Assembly: GCF_019683595.1 (NCBI RefSeq)
Contig: NZ_JADGHZ010000011.1
Span: 1 to 45,013 of the forward strand
From: Sphaerobacter sp.
GTDB lineage: Bacteria; Chloroflexota; Chloroflexia; Thermomicrobiales; Thermomicrobiaceae
Direction of reading: 5' to 3'
DNA length: 45,013 nt
The position numbers were made by a program, and so were the translations under genes. The notes beneath the pieces were generated by a model. The model was not told the origin of the DNA. It did not search any database and was given only the letters and a program-made list of their open reading frames with translations. Below are positions 29,611-43,291 of the stretch, one piece after another (the first letter of the stretch is position 1; each line of letters starts with the position of its first letter).

Positions 29611-29669
29611 CTAGGTTCGGCGTAGCGTGGGCACCTTGGTGTCCTCCCTCCTTGGCTCGAGGCGGTTCG

Positions 29670-29800
29670 GACACGGCAGCGGCGGGTAATCTGGCTTCGC
29701 CGCGCCTCGGCGCGGCGTCACAGTTGCGGCACAGCCCCGGACTTGCACCGGTGTTCCCCCGGGTGGACCGGCCGCGCTTCGGCCGGTACCCGCTGCCGTA
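29670..29800 (-). ncRNA. Cobalamin (AdoCbl) riboswitch aptamer
   Basis: On the minus strand the conserved core reads GGGGGAACACCGGTGCAAGT, then CCGGGGCTGTGCCGCAACTG and TGA, the canonical cobalamin core; after a long GC hairpin the B12 box appears as AGCCAGATTACCCGCC. The closing stem P1 is CGGCAGCG (29798-29791) with CGCTGCCG at the 3' side (29674-29681). About 145 nt separate the aptamer from the toroid gene start. Binding of adenosylcobalamin should shut the import operon off when the vitamin is plentiful. Confidence 0.93.
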
Positions 29801-29810
29801 GGGGATACTC

Positions 29811-29845
29811 CATTCCTGTCCACATTCCTGTCCACGGTGTGGACA
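29811..29845. repeat. Tandem 12-bp direct repeat plus inverted repeat at the riboswitch transcript's 5' end
   Basis: CATTCCTGTCCA occurs twice in perfect tandem (29811-29822, 29823-29834); the second copy overlaps a 7-bp perfect palindrome TGTCCAC-GGT-GTGGACA (29829-29845). It lies between the predicted promoter and the aptamer, so it could be an operator or an upstream RNA hairpin. Confidence 0.6.
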
Positions 29846-34888: not shown

Positions 34889-36394
34889 GTGACGGGTCTG
34901 AAGGCGAGGCCGGAGGAGCGGCTTCACACGTCGACCGAGCGAACCTCGCGGCGACGGGTCGAGGTGCTCATCGCGGTGGCGCTCGCGTGCGTCTACTTCG
35001 CGGTCATGGGCGGGCGACTGTACAGCATGGACGGCCTGTTTATGTACCGGCAGGCGTGGGCCATCGCCTTCGACCATTCGATCCGCTTCGAGACCCCTGT
35101 CTGGATCTGGAAGCCGGACCCCGTCTGGAACAGCAAGTACGGCATCGGGCTGTCGCTGCTGTACCTCCCCGGCATCCTGCTCTTCCGTCGCTGGTTCGGC
35201 GAGAGCACACCCGTCTCGCTCACCCGGCCGGAGCCGCTCGATCAGTTCTACTGGAGCGAGCTCTACCTCGACCGGCTCTACACCGTGGGCGGGGCCTGGG
35301 TGCATGCCGTCGTCGTCGCCGTGACTGCCTACCTCGTGGCGCGACTGGTCGCGGAATTGGGCGGCTCGCGCTGTGCCGGGCTCTGGGCGATGCTCTTCTA
35401 TGGCCTGGGTTCTTCCGCGTTTGTCTACGCCAAGGGCGATTTCGCCCAGCCGCTGGAGGGGTTGTGCTGGGTTGCGGCGTTCCTAGCCGCGGCGCGGTTC
35501 AGGCGGACCGGGGCACGGCGGGACGTGTGGCTCGCGTCCCTTGCAGTCTGGTACGCGGTTCTGACGCGCCCCGTCGAGGGTAGCCTGCTGGTGCCGGCGG
35601 TGCTCGCCCTGGTTGCCCTGGACCGACGTCCGGGCGAGCGGCCTTCGATCCGCTTCCGGGCGGCACTGCCCGTAGTCGGGCTCTACGGCGTGGCGTTCGC
35701 CATCACCCTGCTGGTGAACTGGGCGCGCTTCGGCTCTCCCTTCGTGACTGGGTACGAGCCGCAGGAGGGCTGGCGGATGCCCGACCGGACGCGCGTCCTC
35801 GGGGTGCTGATTAGCCCGGCCCGAGGCATCATCTGGGAGTTCCCGGCGCTGGTGCTGGCCCCACTCGGATTCCGGGCTCTGTGGCGCACCCCTTCCCGGT
35901 GGGTTGCGCTGGCGATGGTCGCCCTGGCGGGCGTGCAGTTGGTCAACGTGGCGACCTGGCTGATGTGGTGGGGCGGTTGGAACTGGGGCCTGCGCCTCTT
36001 CGGCCCTGCCATTCCCCTGCTGGCCGTGCTCGCCGGGCTGGGCGCCTCAGAGCTCGGACCGCGGACGCGGCGGTGGCTCCCTGCGATCCTGTTATTCGCC
36101 GGGATCACCTGGGCGGCGCCCGGCGTCGTCACCGACCTATTGGGTGGCTACGGCCTGCTGGCCGACGGGCCGCAGGGGAGCTGGCGGCTTGACGCCTTCC
36201 CGCCCTACGGCGCCTGGCAGTTCCTGGAACGGTGGAGCCCGCGGGCTGAGATCGACTGGGGCTCCGTCGACATCCTCTGGGTGCGCCTGACCCGCACGCA
36301 CGGGGACGTCGTGCTGGTCGTCCCCGCGCTCCTCCTTGGAATTGCCGCGGTGCTGGCCGTCCGCGCGTGGCAGTTCGCGCGGCAGGAGGGGTGA
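34889..36394 (+). CDS. Polytopic membrane protein, possible GT-C type glycosyltransferase
   Basis: 501 residues, GTG start (AAGCGGGAC upstream, moderate). After a 25-residue basic lead there are about ten membrane segments (VLIAVALACVYFAVMGG; WVHAVVVAVTAYLVARLVA; ALPVVGLYGVAFAITLLV; IPLLAVLAGLGASELG; LLGIAAVLAVRAW and others). The first large loop has Asp near GGRLYSMDGLFMY and a charged YSELYLDRL-like stretch, the layout of PMT/GT39-like transferases that use lipid-linked sugars. I do not recognise a precise family, and the catalytic DE pair of GT39 is not clear. No neighbours explain it. Confidence 0.8.
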   Translation: MTGLKARPEERLHTSTERTSRRRVEVLIAVALACVYFAVMGGRLYSMDGLFMYRQAWAIAFDHSIRFETPVWIWKPDPVWNSKYGIGLSLLYLPGILLFRRWFGESTPVSLTRPEPLDQFYWSELYLDRLYTVGGAWVHAVVVAVTAYLVARLVAELGGSRCAGLWAMLFYGLGSSAFVYAKGDFAQPLEGLCWVAAFLAAARFRRTGARRDVWLASLAVWYAVLTRPVEGSLLVPAVLALVALDRRPGERPSIRFRAALPVVGLYGVAFAITLLVNWARFGSPFVTGYEPQEGWRMPDRTRVLGVLISPARGIIWEFPALVLAPLGFRALWRTPSRWVALAMVALAGVQLVNVATWLMWWGGWNWGLRLFGPAIPLLAVLAGLGASELGPRTRRWLPAILLFAGITWAAPGVVTDLLGGYGLLADGPQGSWRLDAFPPYGAWQFLERWSPRAEIDWGSVDILWVRLTRTHGDVVLVVPALLLGIAAVLAVRAWQFARQEG

Positions 36395-36396
36395 GA

Positions 36397-36452
36397 CGTG
36401 ATGCGTGATGCGTGATGCGTGATGCGTCATACGTCATGCGTCATGCGTGAAG
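36397..36452. repeat. Tandem heptad repeat, eight 7-bp units
   Basis: Three bases after the membrane protein stop: four perfect CGTGATG units, then CGTCATA, CGTCATG, CGTCATG and CGTGAAG. The switch from GTGATG to GTCATG halfway looks like two arrays of near-complementary units. It gives no ORF, and no hairpin with a T-tract. Confidence 0.85.
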
Positions 36453-36479
36453 CGGCTGTTGTCCGCTGGTAGGCCCGTG

Positions 36480-36735: not shown

Positions 36736-36764
36736 TTGACCAGGGGTGTGGGGCGCGGTATACT
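36736..36764 (+). promoter_or_regulatory. Promoter of the pyrimidine operon, TTGACC-N17-TATACT
   Basis: -35 TTGACC (36736-36741), -10 TATACT (36759-36764), ideal 17-bp spacing. Start near 36771, giving a leader of about 140 nt before pyrC. Confidence 0.75.
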
Positions 36765-36770
36765 TCGCCG

Positions 36771-36908
36771 GATTGAGAACTGGCGGGGTTGTACGAACAC
36801 AGGGAACGGTCAGATTGCGCCAGTCGGCAGAACAATTCGAGGGCGTCCAGCCATCCAACGTTGATCAGTCAAGGCCTTTGGGTTCCGGCCGAACCCAAAG
36901 GCTTTTTT
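36771..36908 (+). ncRNA. Pyrimidine operon leader with attenuator (candidate)
   Basis: The leader opens with a stem ACTGGCG (36779-36785) / CGCCAGT (36818-36824) and ends in a perfect intrinsic terminator. Transcription must read through it to reach pyrC. This is the layout of pyr attenuators, but I find neither a convincing PyrR-binding loop nor a clear antiterminator, and pyrR is not in this window. A discrete 138-nt small RNA is the alternative reading. Confidence 0.5.
36874..36908 (+). terminator. Intrinsic terminator in the pyr leader
   Basis: GCCTTTGGGTTC and GAACCCAAAGGC make a perfect 12-bp stem with a 5-base loop CGGCC, followed immediately by six Ts (36903-36908). This is the only terminator in the window with a full T-tract, and it sits 5 bases upstream of the likely pyrC start. 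Confidence 0.9.
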
Positions 36909-36913
36909 CGTAT

Positions 36914-38254
36914 GTGGAACACGGAGAACGTAGGAGCCGCCCGATCCTGATCCGGGGTGGCCGCGTGGTGGACCCCTCGCAGGGACTTGACGCGGTCGCG
37001 GACGTGCTGGTGATGGGCGATCAGGTCGCTGCGCTCGGGGTTGGTCTGCCTGAGCCGGAAGGCGCAGAGGTGGTCGATGCGAGCGGCCTGGTGGTGACGC
37101 CCGGCCTGGTCGACGTCCACGTTCACCTGCGCGATCCGGGTTTTCCCGAGAAGGAGACGCTGGAGACCGGAGCGGCCGCGGCGGTGCGGGGCGGTTTCAC
37201 CACGGTCTGCTGCATGCCCAACACCAACCCGGCACTCGATACGCCGGAGCGGGTCGCCGACGTCGTCGAGCGGGCGGCCGGCCTGCCGGTGCGCGTCTAT
37301 CCCATCGGCGCCATCTCGATCGGGCGTGCCGGGACGGAGCCGGCGGACTGGGCGGGCATGGCCGCGGCGGGGGCGATCGGGTTCTCCGACGACGGTGACA
37401 GCACACGGAGCAGTGCGGTCATGCGCCAGGCGCTGGCGTGGTCGGCCGAGTCCGGCTTGCCGATCATGGTGCACGCCGAGGACTGGACATTGGCGCCCGG
37501 CGGGGTGATGCACGAAGGCGACGTGTCGCGAGAGCTCGACCTGCCCGGTATCCCGGCCGCTGCCGAGGAGATCATCACCGGGCGCGACATCGAGATCGCG
37601 CGGCTGACCGGTGGCTGGCTGCACGTGCTCCATGTCAGCACCGCGAGGGCGCTCGGCATGGTTCGGGCGGCGAAGCGCGATGGGGTGCGGGTCACCGCTG
37701 AGGTGATGCCCCATCACTTGCTCTTGACCGACGAGTGGGTCGCCGGGCGGCGTCGCTTCGTCTGGGAGGACACTGTCGTGCCCGGTCCGCGTCCGGATCC
37801 GAACGCCAAGGTGAACCCGCCGCTCCGGCCGGAAGCCGATGCCCGGGCGCTGCTGGAGGGCGTGACCGATGGAACATTCGACGTGATCGCGACCGACCAC
37901 GCGCCGCACGCCGCACCGGACAAGCCGACCGATCTGCGGCGCGCGGCGTCAGGCATGATTGGTCTCGACGTGGCACTGCCGCTGCTGTGGCGTCTCGTCG
38001 AGGCTGGGCGGCTGCCACTGATGACGGTGATCGACCGCCTCTCGACGGCTCCGGCGCGGCTCTTCGGTCTGCCGGGCGGGAGTCTCCGCCCGGGCAGCGT
38101 GGCTGACCTCACCGTCTTCGACCCGGCTGCCGAGTGGGTTGTCAGTCCGGAGACCATCGCGTCGAAGAGCAAGAACACCCCGCTGCTCGGGATGACGCTG
38201 CGGGGTGCGGTTCGCTTGACCATGATCGCAGGGGAGGTGCGGTATCGTGGCTGA
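36914..38254 (+). CDS. pyrC: Dihydroorotase
   Basis: 446 residues from the GTG at 36914. Class I dihydroorotase closes carbamoyl aspartate to dihydroorotate. Seen: LIRGGRVVDPSQGLD, zinc HxH in PGLVDVHVHLRDPGF, CMPNTNP, HAED, the zinc histidines in LHVLHVSTA, and the catalytic Asp in IATDHAPH. The start is uncertain: GTG 36914 is in frame but directly follows the terminator with little ribosome binding site, whereas TAGGAG at 36931-36936 would suit a CTG start at 36947 (435 residues). The track start at 36746 lies in the promoter. The stop overlaps carA by 8 bp. Confidence 0.93.
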   Translation: MEHGERRSRPILIRGGRVVDPSQGLDAVADVLVMGDQVAALGVGLPEPEGAEVVDASGLVVTPGLVDVHVHLRDPGFPEKETLETGAAAAVRGGFTTVCCMPNTNPALDTPERVADVVERAAGLPVRVYPIGAISIGRAGTEPADWAGMAAAGAIGFSDDGDSTRSSAVMRQALAWSAESGLPIMVHAEDWTLAPGGVMHEGDVSRELDLPGIPAAAEEIITGRDIEIARLTGGWLHVLHVSTARALGMVRAAKRDGVRVTAEVMPHHLLLTDEWVAGRRRFVWEDTVVPGPRPDPNAKVNPPLRPEADARALLEGVTDGTFDVIATDHAPHAAPDKPTDLRRAASGMIGLDVALPLLWRLVEAGRLPLMTVIDRLSTAPARLFGLPGGSLRPGSVADLTVFDPAAEWVVSPETIASKSKNTPLLGMTLRGAVRLTMIAGEVRYRG

Positions 38255-39407
38255 GTTTCTCGCCTCCCGGGGGGCACTCGTGCTCGAAGACGGTCGGATC
38301 TTCCGTGGCGAGCCCTTCGGCGCCGAAGTCGACGCCGAGGGGGAGGCCGTCTTCACGACCAGCATGGTGGGGTACCAGGAGATCGCGACCGATCCGTCCT
38401 TCTACGGGCAGCTCGTCTGCCTCACGTACCCGCTCATCGGCAACTACGGCGTCAACGCGGAGGATGACCAATCGCGCCGGCCTTGGGTAGCCGGGCTCAT
38501 TGTGCGCGAGTACTGCGACGAGCCGAGTCACTGGCGCGCCACCGGGACGCTCGCGGAGTATCTGCGACGGCACGGTATCCCGGCGCTCCACTCGGTCGAC
38601 ACCCGTGCCCTCACCCGGCACATCCGTCGGCACGGGGCGATGCGCGCGTTGCTCGTCTCCGACCGAGCGGGGCGGAGCGATGAAGAGTTGATCGAGCGGG
38701 CACGCCGGGCGTGGACGCCGGGTGAGCATGAGGTCGTCTCGACCGTCACCACGCCTGAGCCACAGGTGATCGACGGCCCCGGCCCGCATGTCGTCGTGCT
38801 CGACTGCGGGCTGAAGGCGGGGATCATCTCGTCGCTGAAGCGGCGTGGTGCTCGCATCACCGTCGTTCCCGTGACAACACCGGCTTCCGAGATTCTGGCA
38901 CTGGCGCCGGACGGGGTGGTCACCTCGCCGGGGCCGGGCGATCCAGCACAGGCCGAGGCCGCGGTGGAGACGGTGCAGGGTATTCTTGCCGCGGGGGTCC
39001 CGTTCCTCGGGATCTGCCTGGGACACCAGTTGCTCGCCCGCGCGATCGGTGCCGAAACGCGGCGGCTCAAGTTCGGTCACCGGGGCGGCAACCACCCGGT
39101 GAAGGATCTCCAGACCGGAGCGGTGCGCATCACCTCGCAGAACCACGGCTACTACGTGGACGCCGCGAGCGTGCCGGTCGACTTGGGCTGGCGTGTGTCG
39201 CAGGTGAGCTTGAACGACGGGACAGTGGAGGGCCTGGAGCACGTCTCACAGCCGTTTTTCTCGATCCAGTACCATCCGGAGGGATCGCCCGGGCCGCTCG
39301 ATAGTCAGGATGTCTTTGATCGATTTCTCGACCGCGTTCGCGCAGCGGGTCCCAAAGCGGAGGCGCCGGTGACGACGGGGACGCGGATCAGCGGGGTGCA
39401 GGAGTAG
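38247..39407 (+). CDS. carA: Carbamoyl-phosphate synthase small (glutaminase) subunit
   Basis: 386 residues, GTG start behind GGGAGG and inside the end of pyrC. The N-terminal CarA domain ([40 protein letters not shown]) is followed by the class I glutaminase with the nucleophile in [11 protein letters not shown] and the HPE triad in [18 protein letters not shown] is typical of CarA. It supplies ammonia from glutamine to CarB for pyrimidine and arginine synthesis. Confidence 0.97.
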
Positions 39408-39415
39408 CGGACGAC

Positions 39416-42400
39416 GTGCAATCGACCAAGCCAATCTCGAAGGTACTGGTGATCGGCTCCGGGCCGATCGTGATCGGCCAGGCGGCGGAGTTCGACTACG
39501 CCGGGACGCAGGCCTTGCGGGCGCTCCGCGAGGAGGGGATTCAATCCGTCCTGGTGAACTCCAACCCGGCCACGATCATGACCGACGAAGACGTAGCCGA
39601 CGTCGTCTACATCGAGCCGTTGACGCTCGACGTCCTGCGGCGTGTGATCATCCGGGAACAGCCCGACGGCCTCCTGCCGACGCTGGGTGGACAGACCGGC
39701 CTGAACCTCGCGGTGGAGCTGGCTGAGGCGGGGATCCTGGATCGGTACGGCGTGCGGCTGCTCGGGACGCCCCTCGACGCCATCCGCAAGGCCGAGGATC
39801 GGGAACTGTTCAAGAAGCTCCTGATCGACATCGGCGAGCCGGTGGTCGAAAGCACGATCGTCCATAGCCTCACCGAGGCGCGCGAGTTCGCGCGCGAGGT
39901 TCCGCTGCCCCTGATCATCCGTCCCGCCTATACGCTGGGTGGCACCGGCGGCGGCATCGCCACCACGCCCGAGGAGTTAGACCGCATCGTCGTCGCAGGG
40001 CTGGCTGCCAGCCCGATCAACCAGGTGCTGCTTGAGCGCTCCCTGCTCGGCTGGAAAGAGATCGAGTACGAGGTGATGCGGGACGCGAGCGACACCTGCA
40101 TCACCATCTGCAACATGGAGAACATGGACCCGATGGGGGTCCACACCGGCGACAGCATCGTCGTCGCGCCGAGCCAGACGCTCACCGACCGCGAGTACCA
40201 GATGCTCCGCAAGGCGGCGCTCAAGATCATCCGTGCCCTCGGGATCGAGGGCGGCTGCAACGTGCAGTTCGCGCTCGACCCGAACTCGGAGCAGTACTAC
40301 GTCATCGAGGTCAACCCGCGCGTGAGCCGCAGCTCGGCGCTCGCCTCCAAGGCGACCGGATATCCAATTGCCCGCGTTGCTGCCAAGATCGCGGTCGGCC
40401 GGCGGCTCGATGAGCTGATGAACTCGGTGACCCGGCAGACGACGGCGGCGTTCGAGCCGGCGTTGGACTACTGCGTGGTGAAGATCCCGCGCTGGCCGTT
40501 CGATAAGTTCCGCCGGGCCGAGCGCACCATCGGCACGCAGATGAAGGCCACCGGCGAGGTCATGGCCATCGATCGGTCGTTCGAGGGGGCGCTGCAGAAA
40601 GCGGTGCGCTCGCTGGAGACCGATCAGGAGGATCTGGGCTGGGAAGATCCGCTCTGGTCCGAAAATGAGAGCGCGCTCGAGGACCAGATCCAGCGGCCGA
40701 ACGACCTGCGCCTCTGGGCCATGATGGCAGCGCTGCGCCGCGGGTGGTCCCCAGAGAAGGTCAGCCGGTTGAGCGGCATCGACCCCTGGTTCACGCGGAA
40801 GCTGGCGGGTCTGGTGGAGATGGAGCGGCGCCTGGCTGAGGAGGAGTTGACTCCACAACTCCTCTGGACGGCCAAGCGGATGGCCTTCTCCGACGCGCGG
40901 ATCGCCGCGCTCGCCAACCTGTCCCCGGATGAGGTAACGGCCCGCCGTCGCGAGGCTGGGATCGAGCCGGTGTACAAGATGGTCGATACCTGCGCGGCAG
41001 AGTTCGAGGCTGCCACGCCCTACTTCTACGGCACCTATGAGGAAGAGGATGAGGCCGAGCCGCTCCCGGGCGCCAAGGCGGTCGTGGTCGGGTCCGGCCC
41101 GATCCGGATCGGGCAGGGGATCGAGTTTGACTATTGCAGCGTCCAGGCGGCGACCTCGCTCGGGGAGTCCGGTCACGCCTCGATCATGATCAACAGCAAC
41201 CCGGAGACGGTCTCGACTGACTTCGACACCTCGGACCGGCTCTACTTCGAGCCGTTGGACGAGGAGAGCGTCTTCGAGGTGCTGCGCCACGAGTCGGGCG
41301 GCAACGGGAGCGCTCCGGAGGTCCCGGTCATCCTCCAGTTCGGCGGGCAGACGGCGATCAACCTCTCCGAGCCGCTGGCCGCGCGTGGCGTGCCGATCCT
41401 CGGCAGCGCGCGGGAGGCCATCGACATCGCCGAGGACCGAAAACGGTTCGAGCGCTTCCTGTCCGACCTGGGGATCCCGCAGCCCCCGGGTGATGCCGTC
41501 ACGTCGATGGACGCCGCGATGGAGGTGGCGGAGCGGATCGGCTACCCGGTGCTGGTCCGGCCGTCGTACGTGCTGGGTGGGCGCGCCATGGAGGTGGTCC
41601 ACACCAGAGAGTACCTCGCTCGGTACCTGGAGACATCGGTCGCCTTCGACACCGGCCACCCCGTGCTGATCGACAAATACCTCCAGGGCAAGGAGGTCGA
41701 AGTCGACGCCATCTGCGACGGCAAGGAGGTCCTGATCCCCGGCATCATGGAGCACATCGAGCGCGCCGGGGTCCACTCGGGGGACAGCTTCGCTGTGTAC
41801 CCGGGCCTCAACCTCTACCCGCGCGAGGTGGACAAGATCGTGGAGCACACCACCCAGATCGCGCTCGCGCTCGGGGCGGTGGGTCTGATCAACATCCAGT
41901 ACGTGATCCATGCCGGGCGGATCTACGTGCTGGAGGTGAACCCGCGTGCGAGCCGCACGGTGCCGTTCCTGAGCAAGGCGACCGGTGTGCCGATGATCCG
42001 GCTGGCGACGAACGCGATGCTGGGCCGCAGCCTGCGCGAGCAGGGGTACGAGGGCGGGCTCTGGCCCCGACAGCCGCTGGTGGCCGTCAAGGCACCGGTT
42101 TTTTCAATGGCCAAGCTCCGCGGCGTCGAGGTGCACCTCGGCCCGGAGATGAAGTCCACCGGCGAGGCAATGGGAATCGACCGGTCGTTCGCCCCGGCGT
42201 TCTACAAGGCGTTGCTCGCTGCCGGGATGGCGCTGCCGCCGCGCGGGTCGATCCTGGTCAGCCTGGCCGACCAGGACAAGCCGGATTCGGTCGGGTGGCT
42301 GGAGGTGCTGGCGCGCCTGGGCTATCGCATCTACGCGACTGAGGGGACCGCAGCCATGATCGAGCGCAACGGCATTCCGGTCCAGATGGTCACCAAGCGC

Positions 42401-42658
42401 ATCGGCGCCGGCTCGCCCGATATGCTCGACGTGATCCTGAACGGGACGGTGGACGCGGTGATCAACACGCCCGGCCCCGCGCAGCGCGAGGTGCTCGACG
42501 GCTTCCAGATCCGGCGCGCGGCGGTGGAGCGCGGCATCCCGTGCATCACCTCGACCGACACGGCCCGCGCCATCGTCCAGACACTGGAGAGCGCGCCGAA
42601 CGGTTACGCCGTCCAGCCTCTAGGCACCTACCGGCAGCGGGTGCAAGTCGGGTACTGA
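39416..42658 (+). CDS. carB: Carbamoyl-phosphate synthase large subunit
   Basis: 1080 residues, full length. Two homologous ATP-grasp halves: [20 protein letters not shown] opens the first and [20 protein letters not shown] (about 560) the second; LGGTGGGIA and LGGRAMEVV are the glycine loops, [20 protein letters not shown] and [19 protein letters not shown] the ATP-binding ends. The C-terminal MGS-like allosteric domain starts near 940 ([12 protein letters not shown]...INTPG), where UMP or ornithine acts in characterised enzymes. It forms carbamoyl phosphate from bicarbonate, ammonia and two ATP. GTG start 8 bp after carA. Confidence 0.98.
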
Positions 42659-42685: not shown

Positions 42686-43291
42686 GTGACTGAGGCAGAG
42701 TTCGAAACGCTGCTTCGCGAGGTCGGGGCACTGAAAGAGGGCCACTTCCTGCTGGCGTCGGGGCGACACAGTGGTCAGTACATCGAGAAGTTCGACCTGT
42801 TGCGCCAGCCCCGCATGACCGAGCAGGCTTGCCGCGAGTTCGTGCGCCAGGTGCAGGACTGGGGCGTCGAGGTGGTCGCCGGGCCGACCACCGGCGGCAT
42901 CCTGCTCGCCTTCGAGGTCGCGCGGCAGCTCGGCGTGGCGGCTGCCTACGCGGAGCGGGCAAGTGACGGCAGTTCGGCGCGGGAGTTCCGCCGCGGGACC
43001 CAGTTCCCGCCGGGGGCTCGGGTACTGGTGGTGGACGACATTCTCACGACCGGCGGGTCGGTCCGTGAGACGCTGGCTGCGCTGGAGCGGGAAGACGTCC
43101 AGGTGCTGGGAATCGCCGTGCTGGTGGATCGCAGCGGCGGTCGGGTGACCTTCGACGTGCCGCTTCTGGCACTGTCGCGCATGGATATCGCCACCTGGGA
43201 GCCGGACGACTGCCCCCTCTGCCGTGAAGGCGTGCCGCTGGTCAAGCCCGGGACCACGGCGTCCGGCGGGAGCGCGCCGACGTCCGCGTAG
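42686..43291 (+). CDS. pyrE: Orotate phosphoribosyltransferase
   Basis: 201 residues, GTG start behind GGAGGGGGAG. Joins orotate and PRPP into OMP. Seen: KEGHFLLASGRHSGQYIEKF, VVAGPTTGGILLA, and the PRPP motif VLVVDDILTTGGSVRETL. The C-terminal CPLCREG pair of cysteines is a feature of a longer subgroup of PyrE in Actinobacteria and Chloroflexi-like bacteria. It follows carB by 27 bp, completing a pyr operon that lacks pyrB, pyrD and pyrF here. Confidence 0.95.
   Translation: MTEAEFETLLREVGALKEGHFLLASGRHSGQYIEKFDLLRQPRMTEQACREFVRQVQDWGVEVVAGPTTGGILLAFEVARQLGVAAAYAERASDGSSAREFRRGTQFPPGARVLVVDDILTTGGSVRETLAALEREDVQVLGIAVLVDRSGGRVTFDVPLLALSRMDIATWEPDDCPLCREGVPLVKPGTTASGGSAPTSA

Follow-up and report, generated by a model that had tools for sequence, protein, structure and literature searches.

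An intrinsic terminator between promoter and enzyme

The locus analyzed here raises the question of how transcription of a pyrimidine operon gets past an intrinsic terminator that lies between its promoter and the enzyme domain encoded by its first gene. The window (the whole 45,013-nt stretch of Sphaerobacter sp. DNA that was analyzed) comes from a 3.9-Mb genome that is 99.98% complete. It carries pyrC, carA, carB, and pyrE in this order on the forward strand as one operon, with gaps or overlaps of <30 nt. The part of pyrC that is homologous to known dihydroorotases runs from the motif LIRGGRVVDP to the stop (36947 to 38254) and is followed by carA (carbamoyl-phosphate synthase small subunit, 38247 to 39407), carB (large subunit, 39416 to 42658), and pyrE (orotate phosphoribosyltransferase, 42686 to 43291), which scored above the cut-offs of TIGR01368, TIGR01369, and TIGR01367, respectively. 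pyrB is located elsewhere, away from the pyrC operon, and no attenuator of a similar kind was seen before it.

A promoter scan of 1.2 kb revealed a single sigma-70-like site (shuffled sequences gave 0.1), TTGACC-17-TATACT at 36736 to 36764 (+), and most loci of the order have a promoter of the same type. From its position we infer a transcription start near 36771. The terminator hairpin (36871 to 36905, +) comprises a perfect 12-bp stem (36874 to 36885 paired with 36891 to 36902), which extends to 15 bp with flanking A-U and G-U pairs, and a 5-nt loop. It is followed by a U6 tract (T6 in the DNA, 36903 to 36908, +), so the attenuated RNA is predicted to be ~138 nt long and to end at ~36908. 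Two terminator-like sites were found in the region compared with 0.4 expected, and the leader folded better than its shuffles (z, -2.33). Further upstream lies a leader stem in which ACTGGCG (36780 to 36786) pairs with CGCCAGT (36818 to 36824). The original prediction had named a consensus promoter, a leader stem, and a perfect 12-bp terminator with six Ts, and each of these was recovered. Its observation of a promoter and terminator is confirmed as real and is stronger than first claimed.

We then compared 61 genomes of the order, which its named members suggest to be Thermomicrobiales; they yielded 47 pyrC loci with enough upstream sequence (below, g1 is the window's genus, g2, g3, g4, and g6 are other genera, and f1 to f4 are families). 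When hairpins of -12.8 kcal/mol or better that are followed by a U-tract were counted, a terminator was present before pyrC in all 47 usable loci, 21 to 83 nt 5' of the LIRGG motif, and in none of 27 loci from other Chloroflexota. Five of 64 further pyrC loci from the genome collection scored; two belonged to members of the order and three were marginal. The covariance check that had been proposed for related leaders also came out in favor of the hairpin, with 2 compensatory pairs of 12 and none broken among the seven distinct sequences of the window's family. Because it occurs in every usable locus of the order, is absent from other lineages, and shows compensatory stem changes, the terminator is, by sequence comparison, an inherited order-wide feature, far beyond chance. 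The proposal that the pyrC-carA-carB-pyrE operon has an attenuator with a mechanism that does not involve PyrR is supported.

A reading frame through the terminator and into pyrC

Inspection of the leaders in three frames revealed an ORF that starts ~42 nt 5' of the hairpin and reads through both the hairpin and the U-tract; the start-to-hairpin distance is 35 to 47 nt in 38 of the 47 loci. The start codons are mostly GTG or TTG (39/47). A start codon 25 to 60 nt before the hairpin and a frame open past the U-tract were found for the leader frame in 44 of the 47 loci, compared with 6 of 94 cases in the two other frames, a contrast that controls for the ease with which frames stay open at high G+C content; for separate leaders the frame was picked by its stop, so that only the placement of the start codon tests it independently. 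Four loci deviate in leader geometry, through a start placed 8 or 81 nt from the hairpin or a stop/start junction that fits loosely: L026 and L051 are misfits, and L044 and L056 fit loosely. These deviations may reflect assembly error or real variation.

In g4, f2, f3, and f4 the leader ORF is separate. Among the 34 loci of this kind, 32 (21 of 23 genera) show an overlap between the leader stop and the start codon of pyrC, mostly as ATGA, GTGA, or TGATG. Shuffles of the leader and spacer that kept dinucleotides and left the pyrC start context unchanged gave an expectation of 9.5 loci and 6.1 genera. The sequence of the leader peptide is not conserved (substitutions are flat by codon position, with no third-position bias), as expected if it is the act of translation that matters.

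In g1, g2, g3, and g6 the leader lacks a stop and its frame runs into pyrC, forming one frame in 13 of 13 loci. In nine of these, the stretch from the hairpin to the conserved domain is free of ATG, GTG, and TTG codons, and the GTG that occurs there in the window, at 36914, is GAG in its closest relative (L007, genome G001, same genus). The fused ORFs share a start codon, which reads TTG in g1 (at 36815 of the window), ATG in g3, and GTG in both g2 and g6. With the leader fused in frame and start codons lacking 3' of the hairpin in most of the fused loci, TTG 36815 is the most likely start of the window's pyrC, which would put the attenuator within the coding sequence. The resulting ORF (36815 to 38254, +) would encode 479 amino acids, of which residues 1 to ~42 would be the leader extension. 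Solved dihydroorotases (PDB) align only from ORF residue 39 to 45, which in most chains is near their own N termini. Because these structures begin where the extension ends, the alignments identify the first 40-odd residues of PyrC as an addition. In the PyrC tree the fusion requires one change, which is weakly supported. The original prediction had placed the terminator before the pyrC start codon, which is probably wrong, as the hairpin lies inside the reading frame.

What decides read-through

We consider it probable that this element is a transcription attenuator controlled by the translating ribosome and independent of PyrR. RNA polymerase would begin near 36771 and make a short leader, and by default the 12-bp hairpin and U-tract would halt it at ~36908. 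A ribosome that starts at the weak TTG at 36815, close behind RNA polymerase, would cover the 5' arm of the hairpin; with the hairpin blocked, pyrC-carA-carB-pyrE would be transcribed. Most likely, in our view, the deciding step is a simple kinetic race in which ribosome loading competes with RNA polymerase. In most of the order, where the pyrC start coincides with the end of the leader ORF, translation of pyrC would be coupled to that of the leader, while in g1 and the three related genera the leader ORF would have become the N terminus of PyrC, leaving the attenuator within the enzyme gene. The sequence comparison establishes the promoter, the terminator, the ORF through it, the stop/start overlap or fusion, and a near-constant geometry; a ribosome that decides read-through would explain the overlap and also why the fusion was tolerated. 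The short start-to-hairpin distance (42 to 56 nt), which leaves the ribosome little time, counts against this model, as do the weak Shine-Dalgarno matches of g1 and the loci with deviating geometry. The window does contain a purine-rich, weakly Shine-Dalgarno-like stretch, AGGGAACGG (36801 to 36809, +), and a simple scan of the genus found no 4-base match.

The original prediction held that most transcripts should stop unless an antiterminator or a regulatory event intervenes. The antiterminator did not stand, as the 47 leaders gave no evidence of a competing fold (mean z, +0.33); an antiterminator or pause hairpin overlapping the 5' arm of the terminator can be seen by eye in g19, L028, and L032 and is unsupported over the 47 leaders. 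The regulatory event is most likely translation of the leader ORF through the terminator, which that prediction had missed. Low pyrimidine nucleotide levels, by slowing RNA polymerase, may favor read-through, in which case the signal sensed would be UTP, or else a factor at the element GTNCGNAC described below. There is no U-rich pause tract between the leader start and the hairpin (mean U content, 0.16; longest U-run of ≤2 in 40 of the 47 loci), which makes pyrimidine sensing tentative for these leaders. Reiterative transcription at the start was considered and set aside, with U-runs after the -10 box found only in some f3 loci.

Elsewhere in the 5' untranslated region (5'UTR), the window carries a candidate recognition element, GTACGAAC (36791 to 36798, +; consensus, GTNCGNAC), which the leader start codon follows at a distance of 16 nt. 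The consensus occurs in 18 loci of nine genera (including L009, L013, L021, and L028), 14 to 19 nt before the leader start and 14 to 16 nt in 15 of the 18. It is the commonest of 64 like palindromes in the 50 nt before leader starts; the next commonest is found in seven loci of four genera. Its distance from the -10 box varies, from 9 nt in L028 and L031 to ~26 nt in f1 and f2. A nearly fixed distance to the leader start combined with a variable distance to the promoter suggests that GTNCGNAC is an RNA element acting on leader initiation. Drawn as a hairpin, it would have 3 to 4 bp and an NCGN loop. Pairing alone does not separate an RNA hairpin from a palindromic site in the DNA, since both show it equally. 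Sequences resembling GTACGAAC precede pyrB in L177, L179, and L181; some g2 and g3 genomes have the consensus before pyrB, at a frequency no higher than that of other palindromes. The seven-base leader stem would hold codons 2 to 4 of the leader ORF and enclose the Shine-Dalgarno-like stretch, making a role in the control of initiation at the leader ORF possible.

These features give rise to a rival in which the gate is initiation at the leader ORF: a ligand or trans-acting factor would act through GTNCGNAC and the leader stem that surrounds the start codon, and ribosome-dependent read-through would be the output step only. The rank and placement of the palindrome, its loose relation to the promoter, and the predominance of GTG and TTG starts are all consistent with this notion. 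On the other hand, GTNCGNAC is missing from most f3 genera that retain the attenuator, no candidate factor emerged, and the window's genome has 26 matches compared with 18 for a control pattern, a difference without clear enrichment that also led us to reject GTNCGNAC as a genome-wide DNA operator. We regard an initiation gate of this kind as possible but less likely than not. The attenuator might instead respond not to pyrimidines but to growth rate, sensed as ribosome availability: a larger pool of free ribosomes would raise read-through and with it nucleotide synthesis. The missing pause tract, the mostly non-ATG starts, and the short distance to the hairpin would all fit; pyrimidine operons, however, are usually under end-product control, and we find this reading unlikely. 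We are doubtful, though slightly less so, about a more far-reaching proposal, that of an order-wide family of minimal, ribosome-gated, PyrR-independent attenuators that moved into the coding sequence of the regulated enzyme, with the RNA element before the leader serving as a pyrimidine sensor for initiation in place of UTP-dependent pausing.

The two remaining rivals fare much worse. This operon is the usual target of PyrR, and PyrR-like proteins do occur in g2, g3, g4, and f2g11 (above the cut-off in 9 of the 61 genomes, with two f3 genomes just below), as would suit a PyrR-type or riboswitch attenuator whose binding loop or antiterminator went unrecognized. The leader is nevertheless kept in the window's genus, g6, and most f3 genomes, none of which has PyrR above the cut-off; in the window's own genome, which the original prediction had proposed to check for pyrR, the best matches reached 31 to 34 bits compared with cut-offs of 138 to 140. 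Because the leader does not change in kind between genomes that have PyrR and genomes that lack it, this protein is unlikely to be its regulator. In g3 (L036 and L059; G004) the PyrR-like gene lies far from pyrC and adjoins an M20-type amidohydrolase gene (hydantoinase or carbamoylase-like), and its product may serve pyrimidine breakdown or salvage. Neither a competing fold nor any Rfam family or riboswitch, RF00515 included, was found in the pyrC leader, bearing out the earlier remark that a standard PyrR-binding loop is missing. We consider a PyrR or riboswitch mechanism exceedingly improbable. Hardly more credible is the view that the hairpin ends a separate small RNA or terminates the upstream gene, with pyrC starting downstream, at an ATC/CTG or at GTG 36914, from another promoter. 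That GTG exists in the window, and an AGGAG at 36931 to 36935 is suitably spaced for the ATC codon. Against this stand the GAG in L007 and the nine fused loci with no start codon at that place, the position of the hairpin ~480 nt past the stop of the upstream gene and 3' of the only good promoter, and a leader with no RNA-like conservation of sequence or fold outside the hairpin. The small RNA offered as an alternative in the original prediction is thus unsupported.

Relation to known attenuators

In Escherichia coli and its relatives, attenuation of a pyrimidine operon is known to be coupled to translation, and the closest known systems are the pyrBI and rph-pyrE attenuators of E. coli. Experiments on E. 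coli pyrL have shown that translation close behind RNA polymerase prevents the terminator hairpin from forming (PMC5021804, PMC4824070), and at pyrBI high UTP leads to fast transcription of U-rich pause sites, so that the attenuator forms (PMC7818426). As at pyrBI, a short leader ORF (translated in E. coli, and here read from the DNA) precedes a pyrimidine operon and encloses an intrinsic terminator, and there is no antiterminator. In g4, f2, f3, and f4 the ORF also ends beside the first structural gene. The two systems differ in their parts. Whereas pyrL stops 3 nt before pyrB, the stop of these separate leaders overlaps the pyrC start codon; the first gene is pyrC rather than pyrB, and the host belongs to the Chloroflexota rather than to the phylum of E. 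coli. Between its start and its terminator pyrL has a pause hairpin and UUUUUCUU, of which the Thermomicrobiales leaders have neither counterpart, and its start lies ~88 nt from the hairpin, about twice the 35 to 47 nt that is usual here. PyrL is a separate peptide, as are the leaders of g4, f2, f3, and f4; those of g1, g2, g3, and g6 are fused to PyrC.

The likeness to other classes is more limited. PyrR-dependent attenuators (RF00515) also have a terminator within a pyr operon leader, but the window's genome has no PyrR and its leader neither the binding loop nor the antiterminator. Attenuators of the trp/his type combine a leader ORF with a terminator, and in them translation affects termination; unlike these, the ORF here passes through the terminator, without alternative hairpins or shared control codons, and the 47 leader peptides have no common codon run before the hairpin. 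The best reading of these comparisons is a variant of ribosome-coupled attenuation that resembles E. coli pyrBI and lacks its U-rich pause tract. A search of the open-access literature (subscription papers lay outside it) found no paper describing this attenuator.

The same principle appears to be fixed throughout an order that is unrelated to E. coli, belongs to the Chloroflexota, and mostly lacks PyrR; it would operate there with fewer parts, as pause hairpin, U-rich tract, and antiterminator are missing and the spacing is nearly constant at 40 nt. The order also offers a natural progression. At one end stands a separate leader peptide with its stop on the pyrC start, at the other a leader fully fused to the enzyme. 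One practical consequence is that the start of pyrC, if it has been put 3' of the terminator, may be wrongly annotated in Sphaerobacter, Thermalbibacter, and related genera.

Other features of the window were also noted. A tandem array of ~8 copies of the 7-nt unit CGTGATG (36397 to 36454) lies just after the upstream gene (34889 to 36394) and ahead of the pyrC promoter. On the reverse strand, a cobalamin riboswitch at 29664 to 29809 scored 38 bits, above the Rfam gathering score, and is adjoined by a 12-nt tandem repeat at 29811 to 29835.
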